From: Fibrobacteria bacterium
GTDB taxonomy: Bacteria > Fibrobacterota > Fibrobacteria > UBA11236
Direction: 5' to 3'
DNA: 57,695 bases
Assembly (NCBI GenBank): GCA_025360005.1
Contig: JANYDA010000031.1
Span: 1 to 57,695 of the forward strand
Positions 41,782 through 57,365 of this stretch are shown here, one piece after another (position 1 is the first letter of the stretch; each line of letters starts with the position of its first letter). The position numbers and the translations under genes are program-made. Below the pieces are notes generated by a model, which was not told the origin of the DNA, made no database searches, and saw nothing but the letters and a program-made list of their open reading frames with translations.

Positions 41782-43449
41782 CTAGGCAAGGATATCGTCC
41801 GGCCCATCCACCGCGGGAGCCTTATTCTTGTTGGTGATCAGGTGCAATGCCTCCAGATGCTTGCGGAATGCCTTTACGGCCCGCCCTTTCAGAGCGCGCG
41901 CGGCCAGGGGTTCGCACAACAACTTGGTGCGTATGAAAAGCCGCTCCCAGCGGGAAAGCGCGATCAGCTCGTGTTTCATCAGATAGCGGATCAATTCCCC
42001 GAAAAGGGAATTCCAGACCAGCAGGTTGATCCCGAAACCGCCCAGGAAAGCCGTGCGCGAGGCGATGATCAGATGATGTTCCTTGTTGTTCAACTGCGGA
42101 TGCTTATAGCTGGCCTTCAGCCTGCGGAACCCGATGCGCTCGTACATGGGCAGGAGTTCATCCATGGCCGATGTCAGCAGCCAATGCCGGTCGGACATCA
42201 GGAAATGCTTCAAGCCGTGTTCGAACATCCCTTGCAGCACGTCCGTGCCGCGATACTCGGGATGGATGCACAGGCGCGAGACTTCGATAAGGTTCGCCTT
42301 GGGCGGCAAAGGCACCGGATATTTCCCCCCCTGGAATCCCGCTTGGCTATCCAGTACGGTTTCTTCCGAGGTAGGGAAGGTGAATGTCAACGTACCCACC
42401 AAGCGCTCATGATGGTGCGCCATCAGGATGCGGCTCTTGCCGTCCAAGGCGGAAGCCATGTCTTCCGGAGAGGTCTCACGGGCGCGCTTGCCCGCCCCCA
42501 CGTAGGCGTCCCGGCGCAGGTAGAGGACTTCCGCATAGTCTTCCAGCGATTTCACCGAGCGGAAACGCAGGTGGCTTTTGACCTGTTGTACCCGGAACCC
42601 GGCGTCGAACAACCTGGCCGGGGTCCATTGCCGGGAAAACATGAGGAAGTCGCAGATGCCGTTGTGGAGCCGGAAGTCGATGTCGGCGCATTCCACTCCG
42701 AAGCGGATTTCTTCCGCGCTGGCCGCGTTGATCCACGCTACGCGCACACGCATGGGAAGCGATCGGTACGAGGCCAGCTCGAAGAAGAGGCGCAACTCCA
42801 TGCCCTCGAACAGCAGGATCGACTCGTCGTGGGAAAGGAAGGAGAATCCCATGTTCTTGTTGAGATCGGAAGCCTGGAGCGCGCACCAATGCCCGTAAAT
42901 GAAGGGATGCCGCACACGCGCCCGCAAGGCGAGCGACGGCGCGAGAGAAAGGCGGAATCCTTCCCGCCTTTCCAAATCGACGGCGCGGGGGAAATTCAGA
43001 TCCAACCGCCGGCAGCCGATTTTGAAACCGTCTTTCCAGTGGCTCACGTTCTTTACTTCGCACCAGACTTCAAATTCCTGGTGGGCTTCAATCCGGATCC
43101 GGACCAGGAGTTCTTCGCCTGCTGAAAGCGGAGACGATTTGGATTTGTCGTCGGGATGGGGTTGGTAAAGAATTCCGAACCCGATGGCGCTGAAATCCCA
43201 GAGTTTGACCGCGCACCAATTCTCGCCGCCCATGCGGACCGAAACGGAGACGGAGCCCAACTCCCGCTGGGAAAAACGGCTTTGGTTCCGCTTGTCCTCC
43301 TTTACGGAAGGCCGCTTTTTTTTCTTGGGTTGGCGATGGCGTTTGGATTGGGGAACCGGGCTCCAATCGCTTTCCAGGCGGGTGTTGGTTGCGGGAGCCG
43401 CCCAAGCGGCTTTCGCGGCCCCGGAATCTCCCAAAGAATTCTTGTCCAT
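41782..43449 (-). CDS. PilZ domain plus N-acyl-amino-acid-synthase-like acyltransferase (paralogue 2)
   Basis: A 555-residue protein. I use ATG 43449 (MDKNSLGDSG); starting higher would overlap the diiron gene and read a basic, low-complexity stretch. After a Lys-rich N-terminus comes a PilZ domain with RNQSR (54-58) and DFSAIG (85-90), the c-di-GMP-binding RxxxR and DxSxxG motifs, and a second PilZ-like unit (RREGFR). The C-terminal half is a GNAT-fold domain of the FeeM/NasY type (YLRRDAYVGAGK, EVSRLCIHPEYRGTDVLQ, YERIGFRRL), which in relatives joins fatty acyl groups to amino acids. Third gene of the operon 45794-41782, 19 bp after the diiron gene. Acyl donor and amine are unknown. Confidence 0.78.
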   Translation of the reverse strand: MDKNSLGDSGAAKAAWAAPATNTRLESDWSPVPQSKRHRQPKKKKRPSVKEDKRNQSRFSQRELGSVSVSVRMGGENWCAVKLWDFSAIGFGILYQPHPDDKSKSSPLSAGEELLVRIRIEAHQEFEVWCEVKNVSHWKDGFKIGCRRLDLNFPRAVDLERREGFRLSLAPSLALRARVRHPFIYGHWCALQASDLNKNMGFSFLSHDESILLFEGMELRLFFELASYRSLPMRVRVAWINAASAEEIRFGVECADIDFRLHNGICDFLMFSRQWTPARLFDAGFRVQQVKSHLRFRSVKSLEDYAEVLYLRRDAYVGAGKRARETSPEDMASALDGKSRILMAHHHERLVGTLTFTFPTSEETVLDSQAGFQGGKYPVPLPPKANLIEVSRLCIHPEYRGTDVLQGMFEHGLKHFLMSDRHWLLTSAMDELLPMYERIGFRRLKASYKHPQLNNKEHHLIIASRTAFLGGFGINLLVWNSLFGELIRYLMKHELIALSRWERLFIRTKLLCEPLAARALKGRAVKAFRKHLEALHLITNKNKAPAVDGPDDILA

Positions 43450-43468
43450 GTCCTTCAATCCGGCCGGA

Positions 43469-44218
43469 TTACTTTCCAGCGCCTTTTTTTTCCGGCGGGT
43501 TCCCGTCCGCCTTGGCGGCGCGCGTTTCCCGCTTACCGATGCTGCTCCAGTCTCGTGCCCGCGTCTCATCGTCCAGAATACCCTGCAACATGAGCGCATG
43601 CAGGCGAGCGGTGCCTTTGGCGCAGTGGATTACGGCCTGAATATCCTCTTCCGTTTCCAGGCTCCCAAGCAGATATCCCTCCAGCCATTTGGTATGCGTC
43701 ACATCCACTTTTGCATGCTCGTCCAGAAAAGTCATCGCGGTCGCGGGGACGCCCATGGCGGTAAGCGCCTTCAGGATGCTTTCGCCCTTGCCGGCCGGCA
43801 GCATTTCCAAGTGATAAATGTAACCCAAGTATCCAACCGGATTGGAATGCTGCACCTGATAGATTGCGAAAGCGAGCATGGCTTCCGTAGTGGGGAGTGG
43901 GCGGCCCGCCGGGATGCCGGATACGTCCTCGCCCAGGCTGCGCAGGTCGTCCAGCGCCATATTATGGTGGCCGTATTCGGCCAGGCAATGGCGGAAAATT
44001 TTCGGCGATAAGTCCCGTTTGTTGCCTTTCAAGTGCCCGGACATCAAGGCGAAGGATTGTGGGTTTTCCCGCACATTGTAGTAGATTTCCCGCAGCAGGA
44101 TCTTGTAATGATCCAAGGTCAATGAGCCTTCCACCAAGCGCCGGAAAAAATCACCTTGGTATAAATCGCCCAGGGAGGCTTCCCACTCTTTTTTGATCCT
44201 ATCGATCATCTTTCCCAT
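43469..44218 (-). CDS. Haem-oxygenase-like diiron oxidase/oxygenase (iron-containing redox enzyme)
   Basis: A 249-residue all-helical protein of the haem-oxygenase-like diiron (HDO) group, which includes UndA (fatty acid to terminal alkene), SznF and BesC. ATG 44218 is an estimate; ATG 44209 is possible. Candidate metal ligands in family order: Glu44 (LLREIYY), Glu81 and His84 (AEYGHHNM), Glu138 (YHLEML), His168 (DEHAKVD), Asp172 and His175 (VTHT). Its start overlaps the stop of the upstream acyltransferase by 20 bp and its stop is 19 bp from the next one, so it is embedded in that operon. The substrate is probably a fatty acyl or N-acyl compound; this is inference. Confidence 0.75.
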   Translation of the reverse strand: MGKMIDRIKKEWEASLGDLYQGDFFRRLVEGSLTLDHYKILLREIYYNVRENPQSFALMSGHLKGNKRDLSPKIFRHCLAEYGHHNMALDDLRSLGEDVSGIPAGRPLPTTEAMLAFAIYQVQHSNPVGYLGYIYHLEMLPAGKGESILKALTAMGVPATAMTFLDEHAKVDVTHTKWLEGYLLGSLETEEDIQAVIHCAKGTARLHALMLQGILDDETRARDWSSIGKRETRAAKADGNPPEKKGAGK

Positions 44219-45794
44219 CCATGGATATTCTTTTCTGCAACAATTCCCGGAATTCCCTTTCCAACCCCGCATCCAACCATTTGCGGGTGAACCCGGAGAA
44301 CAGGGAATAGAACGCCACCCTGGCCTTGAGCCAGGAGCCCAACTGCAAGTGCCCGCGCTCGATCAATTCACGCACCAGGGAGCCGAAGAAATAATTCCAC
44401 GCGAACGGCCGCATCCGCACCCCCGCGATCAAACTGTTCCTATGCAGCAGGATCAGGTGGTGCTCCAGGTTCCCCAGCTCCTTGATGAGCACGGAGGCGC
44501 CCACCTTCTTGAAGCCTATCCGGCGGTACAGCGGCCACAATTTGGCGGTGGTAAAGGTGAGGATCCACTTCCGATCGGAAAAGAGCATGCAACGCGCGAT
44601 TTGCTCGAACATGCCCTGGATCAGATCCCCGCCGCGGTAATCGGAATCCGTACAAAGGGAAATCACCTCCATGATGGAGTCCTTGGGAGGCACCCGCACC
44701 GGGAATTCCGCGCCCGGGAAACATCCTTCCGTCCTGAGCGTGGTCCCCTCCGCCCCCGCGAAGCTTAAAGCCACGGAAGCCACCAATTGGTCCCCATGGA
44801 AAGCCGCCAGCAGGCGGCTGTGGGAATCGAAGGCGGTTGCGATGGGATCCGGGTCGGCGTGGGGAGAAGCCTTCCCGGCCTTTGCATACGCATCCTTCCG
44901 CAGCTTGAGGATGGCTTCGTATTCCTCCTGGGTGGAAACGAAACGGAAGCGCGTCTGATCCTTGAACCGTTTCAGCCGCAGGCCGAAGTCCGATAACCCG
45001 CTGGGTTTGCAAAGCTCCGCTTGCACGAAATGCTCGCCGATGGCGTTAGAGAGATCGAAGGAAAGATCCGATTCATGGATCGCGAAAAGGACGCGCCCGG
45101 CAAGGCCCGCGCGGATCCAAGCGATGGAACCGGTGCATTTCCCTTGCGAGTCCAGAGGCAGCTCGATGTCCAAGGTGACGCGGGCCCCTCCCAACAACAA
45201 CAGCCCCGCATCGGAGGATTCAAATACCATGGTTGCCTTGGGCCCAATCCCCACCATCCTGGCTTCCGACCACTCCTTATACAGGTAAGGGTTCAGGACC
45301 TTGGCCGTAACGGGCCGGATGGTATCCTGCAAATAGCCGGGCGGAAACTCCGGTTCCTGCTCGCCGTTGGCGAAGGGCAGCAGATCCAGTCGGCTCAGGC
45401 CTATCCGCATCCCTTTTTCCACCCGGGTGGCATTCTCGATGAGGCAAGGCAGCTGGAAACTTTTCCCGGGCTGGGCGTCTTTACCGCCGAGCCCGCCCAG
45501 TCGCAGCTCTATGCGATCTCCGGGAACGGAAAACTCGGATGCGATGCCGCCCGGCTGGTACAGGATCCCAAAACCGAAAGTGGAGTAGTCCCATATCCGC
45601 ACTGGTACCCACTCGTTCCGCTTCCGGGATCGGATCCATGCCGGGATCCGTTCTATTTCCCGCTCCACCGTGCGCGGCGCATGCCGCAACGCGCTCGCAT
45701 CGGAAGGGCGCCAGGATTCACGGGGTAACTTCAACGGATCCAATGGATAGTTGGTGCCGGGCGCTATGGGTATGGCTTGCTGCGGTTGGTTCAT
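44199..45794 (-). CDS. PilZ domain plus N-acyl-amino-acid-synthase-like acyltransferase (paralogue 1)
   Basis: A 531-residue paralogue of the protein at 41782-43449, sharing its architecture. The PilZ motifs are REIER (45-49) and DYSTFG (69-74), followed by a second PilZ-like module and a C-terminal GNAT/FeeM-type domain (KLRKDAYAKAGK, EVISLCTDSDYRGGDLIQ, YRRIGFKKV). It is the first gene of the three-gene operon, 95 bp from the divergent histidine kinase. The two paralogues diverge strongly outside the motifs, so they probably have different substrates or form a heteromer. Both binding motifs are intact, so control by c-di-GMP is likely. Confidence 0.78.
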   Translation of the reverse strand: MNQPQQAIPIAPGTNYPLDPLKLPRESWRPSDASALRHAPRTVEREIERIPAWIRSRKRNEWVPVRIWDYSTFGFGILYQPGGIASEFSVPGDRIELRLGGLGGKDAQPGKSFQLPCLIENATRVEKGMRIGLSRLDLLPFANGEQEPEFPPGYLQDTIRPVTAKVLNPYLYKEWSEARMVGIGPKATMVFESSDAGLLLLGGARVTLDIELPLDSQGKCTGSIAWIRAGLAGRVLFAIHESDLSFDLSNAIGEHFVQAELCKPSGLSDFGLRLKRFKDQTRFRFVSTQEEYEAILKLRKDAYAKAGKASPHADPDPIATAFDSHSRLLAAFHGDQLVASVALSFAGAEGTTLRTEGCFPGAEFPVRVPPKDSIMEVISLCTDSDYRGGDLIQGMFEQIARCMLFSDRKWILTFTTAKLWPLYRRIGFKKVGASVLIKELGNLEHHLILLHRNSLIAGVRMRPFAWNYFFGSLVRELIERGHLQLGSWLKARVAFYSLFSGFTRKWLDAGLEREFRELLQKRISMDGKDDR

Positions 45795-45824
45795 GTGAAA
45801 TCAGATGAATCTTAAGGAGTGGCA

Positions 45825-45917
45825 GTGAAAAAAGTCAAATTCCTAACGGCAACGGGGAAGTTGCTACCTTCACGGAGGGTTGCGCGCATATGGAAAAAGT
45901 CTACTCCAACAAGCTGA
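45825..45917 (+). CDS. Possible 30-residue leader peptide before the histidine kinase
   Basis: GTG 45825 has a stronger ribosome-binding site (AAGGAG, spacing about 6) than the kinase start itself. It encodes MKKVKFLTATGKLLPSRRVA and ends at 45917, 28 bases inside the kinase gene in another frame. Such overlap would couple or throttle kinase translation. It may equally be chance. Confidence 0.25.
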   Translation: MKKVKFLTATGKLLPSRRVARIWKKSTPTS

Positions 45918-48046
45918 TATTCTCCTTGGCCCGATTTCTGGAACAGAAATTCGGGAAGGCGAAAATTGATGAAATCCTTGAAAAAGCCAAGATAGATCGC
46001 CTGAAGCTGGCGGATCCTTCCGGGTTCCAGACGGCAGAGGAGGCGGATGCCCTCACCCGCACGGCGATGGAACTGACCGGGGAAAAGGACATCACCTATC
46101 TGGCCGGCAGAAACCTTCCCAAGGACCTGGGCAAGGCGGGCGGCTTTATCATCGGTGTCACGTCCCCTGCCTTCATCATGAAAACCCTGTGCCATATAGA
46201 GGGCCGCATGGCCCTGAAAACCATCAATCACACCCAGAAGATCGGGCGCAACCGCTATCAAGTCGACATCACTTTCAAAGATGGTTTTAAAGAACAGGAT
46301 TATGTATGCCGCCACCGCATCGGTGTGTATGAATCCGTGCCTTTATTCTTCGATCTCCCCTTCGCGAAAGTGGAGCATCCGCAATGCGCTTTCAAAGGCG
46401 GGGAACATTGCCGGTATGAGATCCAATTCCCGGAATCCCAATTCTCGATCTACAACCGCATTTTCCAATTCTTGGTTCTCTTGGCCCTGGCAAGCTTGTG
46501 CATCTGGTTCCGCAAGACCTCGCCCCCCTCATTCTTGTATGCCAGCTTCCTCGCTTCCAGCCTGGGTTTCCTGAGCCTGGCGCGTTACCGCAGCTTGGGC
46601 GCCAAAAAATCGCTGGAATGGTCCCTGATCGCCAACGAAGGCTTGAGCAAGCAAAACCAGCAATTGGAAAACAACAATCTCCAGATCAATTCCCTCCAGG
46701 ATCTCTCCACCTTGCTGCTCAATTCCATGCGCGTGCAGCAAATCTGCGACAAGGTGGTATTCATGCTGGTGCAGCAATTCCGTTTCGGCTCCAGCCAAAT
46801 CTGGCTCCTGGACGATAAGGGCGAATACCTGGGATGCAGGAAAGCGATGGGATATTCGGAATCCCTTTTGGCGTTCATCATCAACACGCGTTTCAAGATA
46901 GGGGAGAACTGGGACAACCCTTATGGCCTGCTGGTGCAGACGTTGGAGAAAAAGCAAACCCTGCTGGTGAACGATCCGGAAGAAGTCTACTCCAGGGTGA
47001 CGCCCCGTACGCGGGAATTCCTGGAGGCGTTGAAAATCTCTTCCTTCATCATGACGCCCTTGTTCCACGGCGATAGGCCGCTGGGCATTCTGGCGGCCGA
47101 ATACCATTCCGGGGAAAAGATGCAGAACCAGGACAAGCTCCTGTTCCAATCGATTTCCAATATCGTCGCCAACGCCATCGTGAAAGCGGAGCTCTTCACG
47201 CAAATGGAATGGAAGATCGAAGAGCGGACCCGGCAATTGGAAGCCGCTTCCAAGCAGCTGCTGGCCGCCCAGGAAATGGCCATCCAAAGCGAGAAGCTTT
47301 CTTCGCTCGGCCAGATGGCCGCGGGCGTGGCGCATGAGATCAATAACCCGCTGAATTTCCTCATCAACATCCTGCCGGACGTGCGCCGGGATGTGGAAGG
47401 CCTGGAGAAGATCCGTGAGCTGGCCGCGCAGGGCGGGCTGAGCGAAGCCGCCTTGCAGGCCATCAAAGCCGTGGACGAGCAATACGATCTGGAAACGCAT
47501 TTGTCCGAGAAGAACTTCGTCTTCGAGAAAATCCAGAAGGCCTTGGACAAAAGCACCCGCATCGCCAACAGCCTGAAGGTCTTTTCCCGCTCTTCCGCCA
47601 AGGAGGCGATCACCCGGGAAAAGTTCGGGGACATGATGCGGGAAGTGATCGATCTGGTGCCGCGGAAAATCATCGGCGACACGCGCATCCTGGTCGAAAT
47701 CCCCGGCAGCCTGGATTGGATGGTGAACAAGAACGAGATGGAGCAGGCGTTCCTGGCCATCATCAACAACGCCATCGACGCCATGAACCAGAAGGGCGAG
47801 CTTGCGATCCGGGGCGAGGATGCGCCGGAGGAGATCAGGATTTCCTTTCAGGACCAAGGCCCGGGGATCTCGGAAGAGATTATCAAACGTATCTTCGACC
47901 CGTTCTACACAACCAAACCGCCCGGTAAGGGGACGGGGTTGGGATTGACCATCGCCTTGGAGATCGTCAAAAAGTACGGCGGCGTATTGGGCGTCCAATC
48001 CCAGCCGGGCCAGGGAACGACCTTTTCGATCCGTTTCAAAAAATAG
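45890..48046 (+). CDS. Sensor histidine kinase with V4R/HNOB-like N-domain, membrane helices and GAF
   Basis: A 718-residue kinase. Residues about 1-185 form a soluble ligand-binding domain ending in AFKGGEHCRYEIQF, a pattern I know from V4R/haem-NO-binding-like sensor domains; specificity is unknown. Two membrane helices follow (about 193-235), then a GAF domain (about 270-430), a coiled coil, HisKA with MAAGVAHEINNPLN (phospho-His near 483) and a HATPase domain (INNAIDAM, DQGPGISEEI, GKGTGLGLTIALEI). No receiver is attached. It is divergent from the PilZ/acyltransferase operon, which it may regulate. ATG 45890 has GGAGGG ten bases upstream. Confidence 0.85.
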   Translation: MEKVYSNKLIFSLARFLEQKFGKAKIDEILEKAKIDRLKLADPSGFQTAEEADALTRTAMELTGEKDITYLAGRNLPKDLGKAGGFIIGVTSPAFIMKTLCHIEGRMALKTINHTQKIGRNRYQVDITFKDGFKEQDYVCRHRIGVYESVPLFFDLPFAKVEHPQCAFKGGEHCRYEIQFPESQFSIYNRIFQFLVLLALASLCIWFRKTSPPSFLYASFLASSLGFLSLARYRSLGAKKSLEWSLIANEGLSKQNQQLENNNLQINSLQDLSTLLLNSMRVQQICDKVVFMLVQQFRFGSSQIWLLDDKGEYLGCRKAMGYSESLLAFIINTRFKIGENWDNPYGLLVQTLEKKQTLLVNDPEEVYSRVTPRTREFLEALKISSFIMTPLFHGDRPLGILAAEYHSGEKMQNQDKLLFQSISNIVANAIVKAELFTQMEWKIEERTRQLEAASKQLLAAQEMAIQSEKLSSLGQMAAGVAHEINNPLNFLINILPDVRRDVEGLEKIRELAAQGGLSEAALQAIKAVDEQYDLETHLSEKNFVFEKIQKALDKSTRIANSLKVFSRSSAKEAITREKFGDMMREVIDLVPRKIIGDTRILVEIPGSLDWMVNKNEMEQAFLAIINNAIDAMNQKGELAIRGEDAPEEIRISFQDQGPGISEEIIKRIFDPFYTTKPPGKGTGLGLTIALEIVKKYGGVLGVQSQPGQGTTFSIRFKK

Positions 48047-51853: not shown

Positions 51854-52084
51854 ATGAAAACAGCCAGCTTTACCGAGTTCCGCAAGCATGCCGCCGAGTT
51901 CCTGGATGAGGTTGAAAAGGGCGAAGTAGTCCGGATCTTGAGGCACGGGAAAGCCGTTGCCGATATCAGCCCTGTCCTTGTGGAGGATAAGCCTTCCTGG
52001 AAAAAGACGCCGCCCCAGCTTCCGTTGAGCGGCGTCTCCCTGTCCAAGGCCATCCTGCAAAACCGGAAAGACGCGGCCAGGTGA
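51854..52084 (+). CDS. Phd/YefM-type antitoxin
   Basis: A 76-residue protein with the Phd fold at the N-terminus (SFTEFRKHAAEFLDEVEKGE, VVRILRHGKAVADISPV) that binds DNA, and a C-terminal tail that neutralises the toxin. AAGAGGAAA lies before ATG 51854. It overlaps the PIN toxin by 4 bp, so the toxin is only made after the antitoxin. Confidence 0.92.
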   Translation: MKTASFTEFRKHAAEFLDEVEKGEVVRILRHGKAVADISPVLVEDKPSWKKTPPQLPLSGVSLSKAILQNRKDAAR

Positions 52085-52497
52085 AGGTTTTCTTCGACTC
52101 CTCGGCTTTGGTCAAAAGGTATGTCCCCGAAAAGGGCACGGATGCGGTCCTGGAGCTCTGCGACGAAGCCAGTGAGCTGGGGCTATCCGTAATCTGCTAC
52201 CCGGAGATCATCTCCGCTCTGTGCCGGCTCCGTCGAGAAAAGCAAATCGAGGGATCTCAATACGTGACCGCAAAACAGGGCATCGCCCAGGATCTGCGGG
52301 ATGCGGCCTTATGCAACATCACGGAGACGGCGGTGCTTCAATCCATCCTCCTTCTTGAGGAGAACACCTTACGGGCCATGGATGCCTTCCACATCGCCGC
52401 CGCTTTGGAATGGGAGGCCGATCTCTTCGTCTCCAGCGACTTGCATCAGATCAAGGCTGCGAAAAAGGCCGGGCTTGCGGTTCGGTCTGTTCCTTAA
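52081..52497 (+). CDS. vapC: PIN-domain toxin (VapC family)
   Basis: A 138-residue ribonuclease toxin starting at GTG 52081. The conserved acidic residues of PIN domains are present: Asp6 (VFFDSSALVKRY), Glu near 42 (CYPEIISAL), Asp near 102 (RAMDAFHIAAAL) and Asp near 120 (LFVSSDLHQIKAA). Homologues cut initiator tRNA or other RNAs. Likely intact and functional. Confidence 0.92.
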   Translation: MKVFFDSSALVKRYVPEKGTDAVLELCDEASELGLSVICYPEIISALCRLRREKQIEGSQYVTAKQGIAQDLRDAALCNITETAVLQSILLLEENTLRAMDAFHIAAALEWEADLFVSSDLHQIKAAKKAGLAVRSVP

Positions 52498-53021: not shown

Positions 53022-53690
53022 TTACTCCACGTTCATACCTTTCAGGAACATTTCCAGGTATTTTTCCCCTTTCCCCTCAAAATCCACAGGCTTGTTAATG
53101 AAATCGTAAAATCTGTTGGATCGCAACGAACGGTACATCAGGTCTTCATCGCTATTTGGATTTCCAGTAATAAGAATAAATCTCATCAAGGGTTTGGCTT
53201 TTTGGACCTCGTCACATAGTTCATTGCCGCTCAGCTTAGGCATAACTTCGTCGGTAATAACAAGCGCTACGTCGTCGCTGGCTTTGATGAATGCCAGGGC
53301 ATCGATGGGACTTGTGAAAGTTTTCAGGTTAATGCGCTTGCCGAATTTCCTTTTGAAAACGAATATGTTTTCTTCCTCGTCGTCCACATATACTACGACT
53401 GGATTTTTCTTTCGGGAAGCCAGAGATAATTTGATTTGCTTTAGCAAATCGCCCAAACTCATGGTATTCAAATCTGTAGGGTTCAGCAAGTCCCTTAACT
53501 TTAAATCCTTACCGCCCAGGCGGTCTTCTAGTTCTGCAACTACTTCTGGTAATGTGGTAATATCCAGGCCCAAATCGTCCAGCGCCATTCCTTCATCCAA
53601 TTTTTCTGGCAAACCCCTATAAGACGGATCTTTGAAGGACAGTCCGGCCACAATTTCCCTTATAATTCCGTATAGTGTAGTTGTTTCCAT
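53022..53690 (-). CDS. ACP-like domain fused to response-regulator receiver (paralogue 1)
   Basis: A 222-residue cytoplasmic protein. Residues about 5-88 have acyl-carrier-protein pattern (GMALDDLGLDITTLPEVVAE, then LEDRLGG and MSLGDLLKQI), but the phosphopantetheine Ser of the usual GxDSL is Ile44, so it cannot carry an acyl group. Residues about 97-220 are a complete receiver: Asp103/104, phospho-Asp147 (LVITDEVMPKLSG), Thr175 (ILITGN) and Lys200 (FINKPVDF). It begins 8 bp after the alpha-oxoamine synthase stop, hence one operon. No output domain: it may regulate the synthase by contact. GC is low (about 40%). Confidence 0.75.
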   Translation of the reverse strand: METTTLYGIIREIVAGLSFKDPSYRGLPEKLDEGMALDDLGLDITTLPEVVAELEDRLGGKDLKLRDLLNPTDLNTMSLGDLLKQIKLSLASRKKNPVVVYVDDEEENIFVFKRKFGKRINLKTFTSPIDALAFIKASDDVALVITDEVMPKLSGNELCDEVQKAKPLMRFILITGNPNSDEDLMYRSLRSNRFYDFINKPVDFEGKGEKYLEMFLKGMNVE

Positions 53691-53698
53691 GATTCTCC

Positions 53699-54982
53699 TT
53701 AAGCACTTGCCGATGGAACGATACCGAGTCTTCCGCCGACGTCAATGAGGATGGCTAGTGTGCGATCGATTTGATCATACGTATGTGATGCATTTGTTAT
53801 GAATCGTAATCGGCCTTCATTGAGTTTAACGGCAGGGAATGCGATTGTCACCGAGAATACGCCATTTTCATAAAGGTTTCTACCAAAAGCGAGCAACGTC
53901 TTCGTTTCTCGTACATAAATGGGAATGATTGGGCTTTGGCTTTTTCCCAGGTCGAATCCCGCAGCGCGAAGGCCCTTGCGGAAATAGGCCGTCTTTTCAT
54001 GTAAGCCGCGAATCAAAGCTGGATCCGACTCGATTTCATCAAGGCTTGCCAGAACTGCGCCGGCATCCGCGGGGGAGATGCAGGCTTGGAAAATATAAGA
54101 GTTGGAATGCCATGACATTAGGGTACAGTATTTTTTTTTGGTTGAAACGAATCCGCCTATGGAAGCGGTCGCTTTGGACAACGTCGACATGATAAAGTCG
54201 ACATCATCCGTAACACCTTGTTCATAGCAATAACCGCGGCCACCTTCGCCGTAAAATCCAAATGAGTGTGCTTCGTCCACATACAGATAAAATTTGTACT
54301 TCTTCTTAAGAGCAGCGATCTCTCTCAATGGGGCTAGATCTCCGCTCATGGAATAAGCCGATTCGACAACTACTAAAATATTCTGGAATTTGTCCTGGCA
54401 GCGCTGAAGCTTCGCCTCAAGATCGGTCAAATTGTTGTGTTTGAAGGCAAGCCACTGTTTCCCAGAAAGTTTGCATCCATCAATGATGCTCGCATGGGAT
54501 TGATGATCGAAAAGGATGATGTCGTTCTTGCCAGGAATGGCGGAAATCGCTCCCAGGTTGACTGAGTACCCGGTAGGAAATAAAAGGGTCCGTTCCTTTC
54601 CTGTCATCGCATTGATGCGTGATTCAATGGCTTTGTGAAGGGTGTTCATGCCCCCCGACATGGCAGAGGTTCCCGCCCCGGTTCCGTAACGTTCCACTAT
54701 TTCTTTTGATTTGGCGATGACTCTGGGATTTCTGTTTAAGCCCAGGTAGTGATTGACACACCAAAGAATACATTCGTTTTTTTTTCCGGTTCCTTCGGTG
54801 ATCACCAAAGCTTGGGAGTCGCTCCCGAATTCAGTATAGCGATCATTGGAGTAAAGGCCCTCTATGTTCTGCAAATCCTTAACGGTTTGCATGGCATCGG
54901 CGATACTATCGAAATCGGTTACTCCTTCGTCCACCAGCTTGCGCATCACATTTCCGATTACCATCGAAGTATTTAGTTCCAT
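53699..54982 (-). CDS. Alpha-oxoamine synthase (CqsA/SPT/KBL-type PLP enzyme)
   Basis: A 427-residue PLP enzyme that condenses an amino acid with an acyl thioester. Motifs: NHYLGLNRNPRVI, YGTGAGTSAMSGG (99-111), LLFPTGYSVNLGAIS, DHQSHASIIDG (159-169), YVDEAHSFGFYGEGG (234-248) and the PLP-binding Lys270 (STLSKATASIGGF). The fold includes 8-amino-7-oxononanoate synthase, serine palmitoyltransferase and the autoinducer synthases CqsA/LqsA. There are no biotin or sphingolipid genes nearby, and the neighbours are a signalling regulator and a CqsS-like receptor, which points to a signal molecule. A sphingolipid-type product remains possible. Confidence 0.85.
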   Translation of the reverse strand: MELNTSMVIGNVMRKLVDEGVTDFDSIADAMQTVKDLQNIEGLYSNDRYTEFGSDSQALVITEGTGKKNECILWCVNHYLGLNRNPRVIAKSKEIVERYGTGAGTSAMSGGMNTLHKAIESRINAMTGKERTLLFPTGYSVNLGAISAIPGKNDIILFDHQSHASIIDGCKLSGKQWLAFKHNNLTDLEAKLQRCQDKFQNILVVVESAYSMSGDLAPLREIAALKKKYKFYLYVDEAHSFGFYGEGGRGYCYEQGVTDDVDFIMSTLSKATASIGGFVSTKKKYCTLMSWHSNSYIFQACISPADAGAVLASLDEIESDPALIRGLHEKTAYFRKGLRAAGFDLGKSQSPIIPIYVRETKTLLAFGRNLYENGVFSVTIAFPAVKLNEGRLRFITNASHTYDQIDRTLAILIDVGGRLGIVPSASA

Positions 54983-55001
54983 TGGGTCACCTTTTCAGAT
55001 T

Positions 55002-55034
55002 GAGATAGTATCTCTTTCCGGCATGAAAAGCCGG
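55002..55034. promoter_or_regulatory. Palindrome and hairpin in the divergent synthase/receptor promoter region
   Basis: GAGATA-G-TATCTC (55002-55014) is a perfect 13-base palindrome, followed by CCGGC-atgaaaa-GCCGG (55018-55034). Both lie in the 150-bp gap between the divergent alpha-oxoamine synthase and cyclase genes, where one regulator could control both. Confidence 0.45.
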
Positions 55035-55132
55035 TTACTGGAGAAAATTGAGGCGCAGAAGTGGCCGATGGATTTTTTTTCGTCCACCCCGTAAAATCGC
55101 AATGAACCGAATCCAACCAGAGTCCGAGGAAG

Positions 55133-56650
55133 ATGCGAAAGTTCCACCTCAACACCGATTACGCTTTTTTCCAAAAAGTGATCCCCGTACTGGGTGGATT
55201 CGGGTTGTTCGGGCACGTGACATTCTATTTCATCCTGAAATACGGCTTCTCTTACTGGGAATCTTGGCAGTTGAGATTGAGCGCCGCGCTCATTCACGTA
55301 GCCTTGATATTCTTCCCAAGGGAAAAATCGCTTAGCATCATTCAGAAGATGTATTTCGAAACGGCGATTGCCCTTACCCTTCCCGCTTTGTTCACGGTGC
55401 TTTTCCTTAAAAACGGATGCAATGTCTATTGGTATTCTTCCTTAATCTTCGCGGGGTTATTGCACGGTCTGTTGACTAAACCTTTTCTTTTTATCTGGAC
55501 ATTTCCAGCCGCGGCCGGACTGGCGACAATGTTTTTCACAAGGATTCATCCTGGAGAGCATCAATTGGTGATGCAAAGTCTGCAAGCGCAGTTGGTCGCT
55601 TATTTCCTGGGATTGATTACTACCGGTATCAAAACCACCATGGAAATATCTCATGAGAAAATCATGGTAACCAAGATGGCGCTGGCAAAGGCTGAAAATG
55701 ATTTACTCACAGCCGAGGTGACTCGTAAGGCCTACGATGAGCTTAAGAAGCGCGAAGAGCTTATCCGCCTCTACGTCCGCCCTTCCCTGGTCGAAGAGAT
55801 CCGCGCCGGTAAGGACCCGTCCAAATCCGATCCGGTAATCAAGAACCTCTCCATCATGTTCTGCGACATCCGCGAATTCACCAAGCTCACCGAAACCTTG
55901 ACCCCCTATGAACGCCAGATGTTCCTCAACCAGTACTTCTCCATGATGACCCGTCCAATCGTCGACAACGGGGGAGAAGTCGACAAGATCATGGGGGATT
56001 GCGTCATGAGCATTTTCCCGGACGGCGCCAAGGCCGTGAAAGCCGCGGTCGCGATGCGCCTGGAATTGCAGAAGTTCAACGAGGCCATGTTCGCCGCCGA
56101 AAGCCCCATGATCCGCAACGGCATAGGCATCGCCAAGGGCGACGTGATGCAGGGGAACTTCGGTTCCTTTGAAAAGCTGGACCGTACCGTCATCGGCGAA
56201 GCGGTCAACATCGCCTCCCGTCTGGAGTCCAAGACCAAGATGTACAACCTGGAAGTGGTCGTTACCGAGGACGTCATCAAGGATTTGCCTTTGGGTTCCG
56301 CCCACTACCGTTGGATAGATAATGTCCAGGTCAAGGGATCCACCCGCCATCTCAAATTGTTCGAGATCTACGGGCATCAGCCTGCGGAAGTCCGGCAGTA
56401 TAAGGACGATACCCGGGACTTGCTTGAGAAGGCATTGACCATCTATTTCCAAAAGGGTTTCAAGGACGCTTCCCGGCTGTTCCGCGCCATGCTGGAACAG
56501 GTGCCGCCCCATCGTCTTATCGCCAACGATTTGATGGACAACATCCTGCACTATTACATCGCGCATTGCGACGCCTGGATCAACAATCCCAACGGCACGT
56601 GGGAGGATATCCAGCGTTGGGAAGGCGTTCATGTGTTTACGGAAAAGTGA
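55133..56650 (+). CDS. Six-helix CqsS-like membrane sensor fused to class III nucleotide cyclase
   Basis: A 505-residue protein; ATG 55133 has GAGGA upstream. Six membrane helices (about 16-39, 47-61, 72-92, 97-114, 118-135, 150-168) follow the plan of CqsS, the CAI-1 receptor. Trp100 and Ser103 (VYWYSS) sit where I recall the ligand-contacting Trp104 and Ser107, and the last helix runs into ISHEK as in CqsS. A coiled linker (170-215) leads to a class III cyclase: metal Asp near 244 (FCDIREF), Lys/Asp near 286-290 (DKIMGDCVM), and the N-x3-R transition-state pair (NIASRLE). The Lys and Thr (DRTVIGE) suggest ATP, hence cAMP. A TPR-like tail ends the protein. GC jumps at about 55.72 kb. Confidence 0.8.
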   Translation: MRKFHLNTDYAFFQKVIPVLGGFGLFGHVTFYFILKYGFSYWESWQLRLSAALIHVALIFFPREKSLSIIQKMYFETAIALTLPALFTVLFLKNGCNVYWYSSLIFAGLLHGLLTKPFLFIWTFPAAAGLATMFFTRIHPGEHQLVMQSLQAQLVAYFLGLITTGIKTTMEISHEKIMVTKMALAKAENDLLTAEVTRKAYDELKKREELIRLYVRPSLVEEIRAGKDPSKSDPVIKNLSIMFCDIREFTKLTETLTPYERQMFLNQYFSMMTRPIVDNGGEVDKIMGDCVMSIFPDGAKAVKAAVAMRLELQKFNEAMFAAESPMIRNGIGIAKGDVMQGNFGSFEKLDRTVIGEAVNIASRLESKTKMYNLEVVVTEDVIKDLPLGSAHYRWIDNVQVKGSTRHLKLFEIYGHQPAEVRQYKDDTRDLLEKALTIYFQKGFKDASRLFRAMLEQVPPHRLIANDLMDNILHYYIAHCDAWINNPNGTWEDIQRWEGVHVFTEK

Positions 56651-56651
56651 A

Positions 56652-57365
56652 TCAAAAGAAGTCCCCTGACAGCACCTTATTCATCGACTCGAAATACTCC
56701 TCGCCCTGCTTGTCGAAATCCAACGGCTTGTTGATGAAATCGTAGAAGCGTCCGTGGCGCAGGGAGCGGTGGACCAGGTTTTCGTCGCCGCCGGGATTGC
56801 CCGTGATGAGGATGAATTTCAGGAACGGTTTGTATTGGTGGACCAGATCGCAAAGATGGTTGCCGCTCATGCCGGGCATGGACTCGTCCGTCAGTACCAA
56901 AACCACGTCCGGGCTTTCCTTGATGAATGCCAGGGCTTCCTCAGGTTTGGAAAAGGTGCGGAGGTTGATGCGCTTGGCATAGCGCCGTCGGAACACGAAA
57001 AGGTTTTCCTCTTCGTCATCCACGTAAACCACCACGGGATTTTGGATGCCATGGTGCAGGCTGGATCGGATATGGCCGATCATATCGCCGATGGTCGCAT
57101 AGCGGTTCTGTCCCGCGGCCGTGCCGCCGAAGGCTTTCTGCATGCGGTACATCAATTCCACATTGAGCGCGATGCCGCCCAAGCGATGGCGCAGTTCCTT
57201 CGCAAGCTCGGTGATGTTGGCGTCGGTAACATGCAGGGATGCGAGGCTGGTTTCCGCGGTGATGGGATCCGGAAGAGGCGCGAAGGAAGGGTTCTCGCGG
57301 GATAACCTTGAGAATACTTCCCGTAAAATGGCGAGTACGCGATCGGGATGCACAGTTATCCCCAC
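56652..57365 (-). CDS. ACP-like domain fused to response-regulator receiver (paralogue 2)
   Basis: A 237-residue paralogue of the protein at 53022-53690, with the same plan: an N-domain of about 100 residues with ACP-like helices (ANITELAKELRHRLGG, TIGDMIGHI) but no GxDS motif, then a complete receiver (VVVYVDDEEENLF, phospho-Asp160 in LVLTDESMPGMSG, LKFILITGNPGG, FYDFINKPLDF). It converges on the cyclase with a one-base gap. The receivers are highly alike while the N-domains differ, so each may dock with a different partner. Composition is normal for the chromosome, unlike paralogue 1. Confidence 0.75.
   Translation of the reverse strand: MGITVHPDRVLAILREVFSRLSRENPSFAPLPDPITAETSLASLHVTDANITELAKELRHRLGGIALNVELMYRMQKAFGGTAAGQNRYATIGDMIGHIRSSLHHGIQNPVVVYVDDEEENLFVFRRRYAKRINLRTFSKPEEALAFIKESPDVVLVLTDESMPGMSGNHLCDLVHQYKPFLKFILITGNPGGDENLVHRSLRHGRFYDFINKPLDFDKQGEEYFESMNKVLSGDFF

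Follow-up and report, generated by a model that had tools for sequence, protein, structure and literature searches.

For decades there has been no settled view of what the six-helix anchors in the membrane part of adenylate cyclases do, and most of the support for a receptor role comes from engineered chimeras. The locus described here raises this question for a natural protein, as a six-helix cyclase is encoded next to a predicted alpha-oxoamine synthase (AOS), an enzyme that could provide the ligand. The window, which is the whole stretch of 57,695 nucleotides that was analysed, corresponds to the complete contig C44 of a 4.98-Mb Fibrobacterota genome (G000) in 65 contigs, and its positions 53022–57365 contain four intact ORFs. 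The AOS gene (minus strand, 53699–54982, 427 aa), encoding a PLP-dependent enzyme of the kind that condenses acyl-CoA or acyl-ACP with an amino acid, is followed 8 nt behind it, on the same strand and in the same operon, by R1 (minus strand, 53022–53690, 222 aa), in which a small helical N-terminal head precedes a CheY-like receiver. Across a divergent intergenic region of 150 bp common to AOS-R1 and the cyclase (54983–55132), where a promoter scan found no sigma-70 consensus, lies the gene for the sensor-cyclase (plus strand, 55133–56650, 505 aa), made up of a CqsS-type six-transmembrane (6TM) sensor, a linker helix, a class III adenylate cyclase and a C-terminal helical tail. R2 (minus strand, 56652–57365, 237 aa), a second head and receiver protein, is convergent with the cyclase; its ORF begins with GTG, and comparison with homologues points to a start codon some 15 nt inside the ORF. 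This four-gene arrangement is more than chance, since it is found again, with these same genes, in sister genomes.

By sequence comparison, the six-helix half of the sensor-cyclase (residues 1–185, 55133–55687) is a homologue of the autoinducer sensor of CqsS/LqsS. No sensor family from Pfam or NCBIfam matched residues 1–236 at E ≤ 1, MASE included, so the MASE-type origin that the sequence-only reading had named as fatal to its proposal did not appear. AlphaFold2 predicted six helices (17–38, 45–59, 69–93, 98–114, 117–138, and 143–214), mostly with pLDDT above 90, the sixth membrane helix extending into a long linker helix; the full-length model was poor beyond residue ~335, which is probably the consequence of an alignment with mostly sensor-only rows. 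A profile of the sensor half, taken from an alignment of 11 sensor-cyclases of the window's genus, was searched against 2,644 ORFs (at least 100 aa) from 78 named CqsA loci in GTDB genomes. At E < 1e-2 it matched 48 ORFs, all of them at most 2.2 kb from a CqsA-type gene and 44 at most 1.5 kb from it, a closeness that is partly built in, since it was by searching for CqsA that sensors of other phyla had been collected. No such bias attaches to the fact that a profile derived from the genus alone singles the sensors out of 2,644 ORFs. The matches included kinases at the CqsS position of Vibrio and Photobacterium (2e-7 to 4e-13), a Legionella kinase (1e-11), a Collimonas sequence (4e-15), the CqsS-position kinase of Grimontia, and many others. 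As controls, the reversed ORFs of the same set gave a best E-value of 2.6, and none of 67 other multi-TM ORFs was matched. When aligned with hhalign against 39 kinase sensors, the profile reached an E-value of 6.6e-21 with a probability of 99% (7.1e-20 for sensor group A alone).

The residues of the ligand site point in the same direction. Head-group preference is set by W104 and S107 in CqsS of V. cholerae (PMC3376566), to which W100 and S103 of the window protein correspond in the alignment, and E43, R48, P84, F87, N94, W100, and S103 are kept in at least 90% of 34 sequences. The motif of the CqsS family (FFFTFMFLMN..S..W..S) aligns with ALFTVLFLKNGCNVYWYSS in the window and reads "FFTFMYLMNSSSTYWFVS" in the sensor of G065, a genome from another family of the phylum. 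The sensors of the genus split into three groups with about 18–27% mutual identity; groups A and C keep the CqsS ligand-site residues, and the conserved Trp is absent from the group B paralogues.

The output domain is assigned by its sequence matches to the class III adenylate cyclases, with a class IIIb-like character (OaPAC/CyaC-type). Residues 237–404 (55841–56344) match Guanylate_cyc of Pfam (2e-17), with no HisKA or HATPase domain found in the protein, and residues 223–422 gave hits to adenylate cyclases of the photoactivated and CyaB/CyaC kinds (5x4t, 5e-28). All six catalytic residues (D245 and D289 for the metals, K285 and T352 for adenine, N359 and R363 for the transition state) are as in the adenylate cyclase OaPAC, including the K/T adenine pair, and they are kept in 14 out of 14 Fibrobacterota sensor-cyclases. 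With a cyclase output instead of a kinase, the window protein is therefore a CqsS-type sensor, not a CqsS. The genome also encodes CRP-type proteins, and eight of its proteins carry cNMP-binding domains and could read cAMP.

The CqsA/CqsS and LqsA/LqsS pairs of Vibrio and Legionella resemble the window in their homologous 6TM sensor, with the W104/S107 residues, and in the AOS-family synthase next door, a genuine CqsA-type enzyme occupying this slot in a sister genome. In contrast to them, the window has an adenylate cyclase as output rather than a histidine kinase, its synthase lies outside the CqsA clade, and the receivers R1 and R2 are additional. The design of the window protein, a CqsS 6TM receptor followed by a class III adenylate cyclase, is that of an engineered CqsS-6TM/Rv1625c chimera that was stimulated 4.8-fold by CAI-1 (Beltz, Bassler & Schultz, eLife 2016, PMC4821796); whereas the chimera was built in the laboratory, the window protein is natural, has a class IIIb-like catalytic domain and is linked to a synthase of its own. 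The clustering of natural 6TM anchors in that work placed the Rv1625c-type anchors apart from the CqsS sensors, with histidine kinases in the CqsS cluster and no natural fusions reported (PMC4821796). A review of 2025 still treats the receptor-driven cyclase as a proof of concept that was obtained with synthetic cyclases (PMC12414865). We found no natural CqsS-cyclase fusion in the open-access literature searched. Rv1625c/Cya of M. tuberculosis, which appeared among the PDB matches of the full-length sensor-cyclase, also joins a six-helix anchor to a homodimeric class III cyclase. We know of no ligand and no linked synthase for anchors of the Rv1625c type.

Of the six genomes sampled from the genus, G000, G002, G004, and G005 have the AOS and sensor-cyclase genes in divergent orientation, together with R1/R2. 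Contig C52 of G002 shows the order R1-AOS / cyclase-R2 as in the window, but with an AOS of the PRK07505 type (279 bits). In G004 (C61) and G005 (C271) the order is cyclase-2 / R2, cyclase / AOS-R1, with an AOS orthologous to that of the window. Contig C212 of G001 presents R2, a CqsA-type AOS (300 bits with PRK07179, CqsA being its best PDB match), R1, a 173-aa AOS remnant, R1b, and the cyclase. As judged by these matches, AOS enzymes of three different families occupy the slot, one family being genuinely CqsA-type. In addition, CqsA-type AOS genes (301 and 292 bits) lie beside an R protein in G065 and G064, respectively, which belong to another family of the phylum. Sensor-cyclases without an adjoining AOS were detected too (G000:C31, G001:C85, and G003:C25). 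In G003, the small contig C99 breaks off within R2, next to a broken sensor-cyclase (L158), and consequently the absence of AOS from this genome is uninformative.

Enzymes of the AOS family combine an acyl thioester with an amino acid to give an amino ketone, as would be expected of this AOS too. The AOS of the window matches Aminotran_1_2 of Pfam (1e-43) and keeps the catalytic and PLP-binding residues D236, H239, and K270. Its best matches in both NCBIfam and the PDB are serine palmitoyltransferases (SPT; 3a2b, 7.5e-76), although it scored 342.7 and 332.1 bits with the SPT models against cut-offs of 640 and 500, and the almost equal score with the BioF model (331.5) is also below every cut-off. 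With the CqsA/LqsA equivalog PRK07179 the enzyme reached 192.7 bits (cut-off 428), less than with the SPT, BioF, and KBL models. In a tree of 38 sequences, the enzyme and its orthologues in G004, G005, and G001:C8 formed a clade (100/99) on a long stem, outside the CqsA clade that includes the AOS of G001:C212, G012, G064, and G065. This clade stands weakly beside the SPTs (support 70/68, stem 1.26), in a tree with only two SPT references. Model scores and tree thus rule out that the window AOS is a CqsA. The phylogeny had a divided outcome for the sequence-only reading, as the synthase was not shown to fall inside the SPTs, where, given sphingolipid genes elsewhere, that reading would have failed, but it remained outside CqsA. 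Because the synthase is not a CqsA/LqsA, an alpha-hydroxyketone as its product is a guess. The BioF-like copy of the genome is located elsewhere, on C24. The model NF047601, tried as a sphingolipid marker, was rejected, as it describes a channel family.

Comparison of the sensor-cyclase gene with sister copies and with the second copy of its own genome (G000:C31) revealed a homology breakpoint at position 55727 of the plus strand (codon ~199), at the border between sensor and linker, and DNA similarity begins at this same base for the copies of G002, G004, and G000:C31. From there through the cyclase, DNA identity was 82–84% to G002 and G004 and 73% to G000:C31, whereas upstream of it the sensor is unrelated at the DNA level to all three copies. 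In the proteins, the catalytic part is 92% identical to that of G002 and 90% to that of G004a, against 25% and 23%, respectively, for the sensor. The GC3 content follows the same division, with 49–58% in R1, AOS, and the sensor versus 73–78% in the cyclase and R2, a step also present in G002, G004, and G005. Read from the DNA, a low-GC R1-AOS-sensor block has been grafted onto a conserved cyclase-R2 block at 55727, and such a pattern, in which synthase and receptor vary while the output stays constant, is the one expected of a signalling system under diversifying selection. A strict one-to-one pairing of AOS type with sensor group is broken by G004, in which the AOS is 72% identical to that of the window and the adjacent sensor belongs to group B, with a group A sensor 14 kb off.

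Fusions of this type were also detected outside the phylum. Four contigs of Neomarinimicrobiota, one of SAR324, and one unassigned carry a CqsA-type AOS gene convergent with a gene for a CqsS sensor joined to a class III cyclase, which occupies the place of the kinase CqsS in Vibrio. In the sensor tree, these cyclase sensors nest among kinase sensors and apart from the Fibrobacterota clade (100/100), and for this reason the fusion of a CqsS sensor with a cyclase probably arose at least twice. The sequence-only reading had proposed a sensor with the CqsS plan, a class III cyclase in place of the kinase, and an AOS beside it; the profile homology, the ligand-site residues, the synteny, and these independent parallels in other phyla support this, as does the co-occurrence of synthase and six-helix cyclase in other genomes.

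Both R1 and R2 matched Response_reg of Pfam, and no family of Pfam or NCBIfam was matched by their heads, which appear as small helical domains in the structure model. The receiver residues D103, D104, the phospho-acceptor D147, T175, and K200 are invariant in 13 sequences, and both proteins are thus predicted to have intact, phosphorylatable response-regulator receivers. The same earlier reading had given them acyl-carrier-like heads; the receivers and the helical heads stood, whereas the serine for phosphopantetheine attachment is absent from the heads (I, A, P, V, and others at this position in the aligned R proteins) and PP-binding was matched in one of 13 homologues, only at E = 0.11. The heads as working acyl carriers were accordingly discarded, the serine being missing and the fold unproven, and their likeness to acyl carriers is weak. 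In Foldseek and VIA searches, cyclase and receiver domains accounted for most of the matches to both models, so that little was learned about the sensor or the receiver heads. R2 has counterparts of 68–85% identity at the corresponding site of G001, G002, G004, and G005, and no genome without a sensor-cyclase was found to have a full-length R protein. A GAF kinase encoded at 45890–48046 of the window is perhaps the phosphate donor of R1/R2, since homologues of it lie beside the module (G002 and G004) or beside the R gene (G064/G065).

We consider it moderately probable that the locus encodes a one-component quorum-sensing-like circuit, in which a lipid signal made by the AOS gates cAMP synthesis directly. 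The AOS would join an activated fatty acyl group to an amino-acid-like substrate, yielding a membrane-permeable long-chain amino- or hydroxyketone that, coming from the cell and its neighbours, would build up with cell density or locally. This lipid would bind the dimer of the CqsS-type six-helix sensor inside the membrane, and the linker helices would then shift the homodimeric class III cyclase, so that cAMP synthesis would change in one direction or the other, with no kinase involved; that binding would act directly is suggested by the continuation of the sixth helix as a linker into the cyclase. R1/R2, whose helical heads may attach to the synthase or the cyclase, would be phosphorylated by a histidine kinase encoded elsewhere, perhaps the GAF kinase, while cAMP would act through the CRP-type proteins. 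The closest experimental parallel is the CAI-1-stimulated CqsS-Rv1625c chimera (PMC4821796), which supports such a circuit by analogy.

Counted against this reading were the position of the AOS outside the CqsA clade, the mismatch between AOS and sensor in G004, the cyclases lacking an AOS, and the neighbouring genes of the FeeM type. The latter are divergent from the cyclase in G064, G065, G066, G004 (L044), and G001 (L046), so the ligand could come from such N-acyl amino acid synthases, the protein being a real CqsS-type lipid receptor and the AOS a separate signal branch or a passenger. The orphan sensor-cyclases would fit this explanation, and in the window, FeeM-type genes form part of a conserved neighbouring cluster (41782–45794) 9 kb from the sensor-cyclase. 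However, it is the AOS that is divergent from the sensor-cyclase in the window, G002, G004, and G005, and AOS, R1, and the sensor have a common unusual composition that FeeM does not share; moreover, every CqsS-type sensor found outside the phylum adjoins a CqsA-type AOS, in a sample gathered through CqsA. We regard a FeeM-derived ligand as rather unlikely.

It is somewhat less likely still that the AOS is an SPT-like enzyme for sphingolipid-type membrane lipids, linked to the cyclase for lipid homeostasis and not for cell-cell signalling. Its fold, PLP residues, and closest scores are indeed those of SPT and BioF enzymes, its place in the tree is weakly beside SPT, and an NAD-dependent epimerase-type gene lies near the module in G004. 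However, the scores stay below the equivalog cut-offs, with BioF as high as SPT, the setting is one of signalling instead of sphingolipid or biotin synthesis, and the neighbourhood of the AOS in the window has no recognisable gene for a ceramide synthase or a ceramide reductase. The swapping of the slot among genomes, with CqsA-type and PRK07505-type enzymes in sister genomes, weakens this explanation further. Finally, the anchor could sense something general, such as the membrane state, fatty acids, or quinones, next to an incidental AOS, as might be suggested by the group B sensors devoid of the conserved Trp and by the three cyclases that stand alone; in view of an AOS linkage that recurs across genomes, families, and phyla, and of the ligand-site residues conserved in groups A and C, this seems very unlikely to us.

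Taking the quorum-sensing-like circuit as the preferred reading, we put it at a little better than even that these proteins are natural autoinducer-gated cyclases, fused at least twice beside an AOS, and that the genus exchanges synthase and receptor as specificity cassettes while the cAMP output stays constant, the signal being made by a new AOS family distinct from CqsA. A natural cyclase with a recognisable autoinducer-sensor domain and, next door, the synthase of its presumed ligand makes the question of the anchors directly testable with two genes in a laboratory host. In its variable synthase and sensor and its constant output, the mosaic is similar to the specificity cassettes known from peptide quorum sensing. 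If the reading is true, AOS-based quorum sensing would be found not only with phosphorelays but also with a one-step output through a second messenger, and in phyla for which it had not been described before.

The replacement of a kinase by a cyclase was also found outside the Fibrobacterota. Fusions of a CqsS-type sensor to a class III cyclase were present at loci L065, L070, L073, L074, L082, and L092, from Neomarinimicrobiota, SAR324, and one unassigned bacterium, with CqsA-type genes convergent with them; in these hosts, the cyclase stands in for the kinase of the cqsA-cqsS pair. Within the Fibrobacterota, genome G012 has a system of the same class but of the ordinary AHK type (L062, the same as L053, 193–4621), in which a hybrid histidine kinase of CqsS type accompanies two CqsA-type genes arranged in tandem. 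The window's own genome encodes a second sensor-cyclase on contig C31 (L050, 7435–9153), whose group B sensor lacks the ligand-site Trp, and no synthase was found near it.

In the congeneric genome G001, an AOS remnant with 46% identity to the window AOS (L046, 7839–8360) lies between a CqsA-type AOS-R1 pair and R1b, so that one synthase appears to have been replaced by another. Just outside the module, a pair of small genes of 76 and 138 aa (51,854–52,497), which looks like a Phd-type antitoxin and a PIN-type toxin, could indicate that the border here is unstable or mobile. In the more distant genome G065, the interval between the R gene and the sensor-cyclase (L155, 4682–7436) holds a gene for an AMP-binding acyl ligase and another that is probably a radical SAM gene. 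In G064, the immediate upstream neighbour of the CqsA-type AOS is an unassigned 454-aa gene (L192, 7409–8773). All of these may encode signal-precursor enzymes.

A conserved cluster neighbours the module (41,782–48,046), in which two FeeM-type genes (N-acyl amino acid synthases, LuxI-like GNAT), one of them with PilZ, flank a Haem_oxygenas_2 gene. Divergent from these lies a GAF histidine kinase whose N-terminal domain is unassigned. Both G002 and G004 have the same set beside the module, and the sensor-cyclase is divergent from FeeM in G064–G066, G004 (L044), and G001 (L046). This cluster is possibly a second signal-synthase branch.
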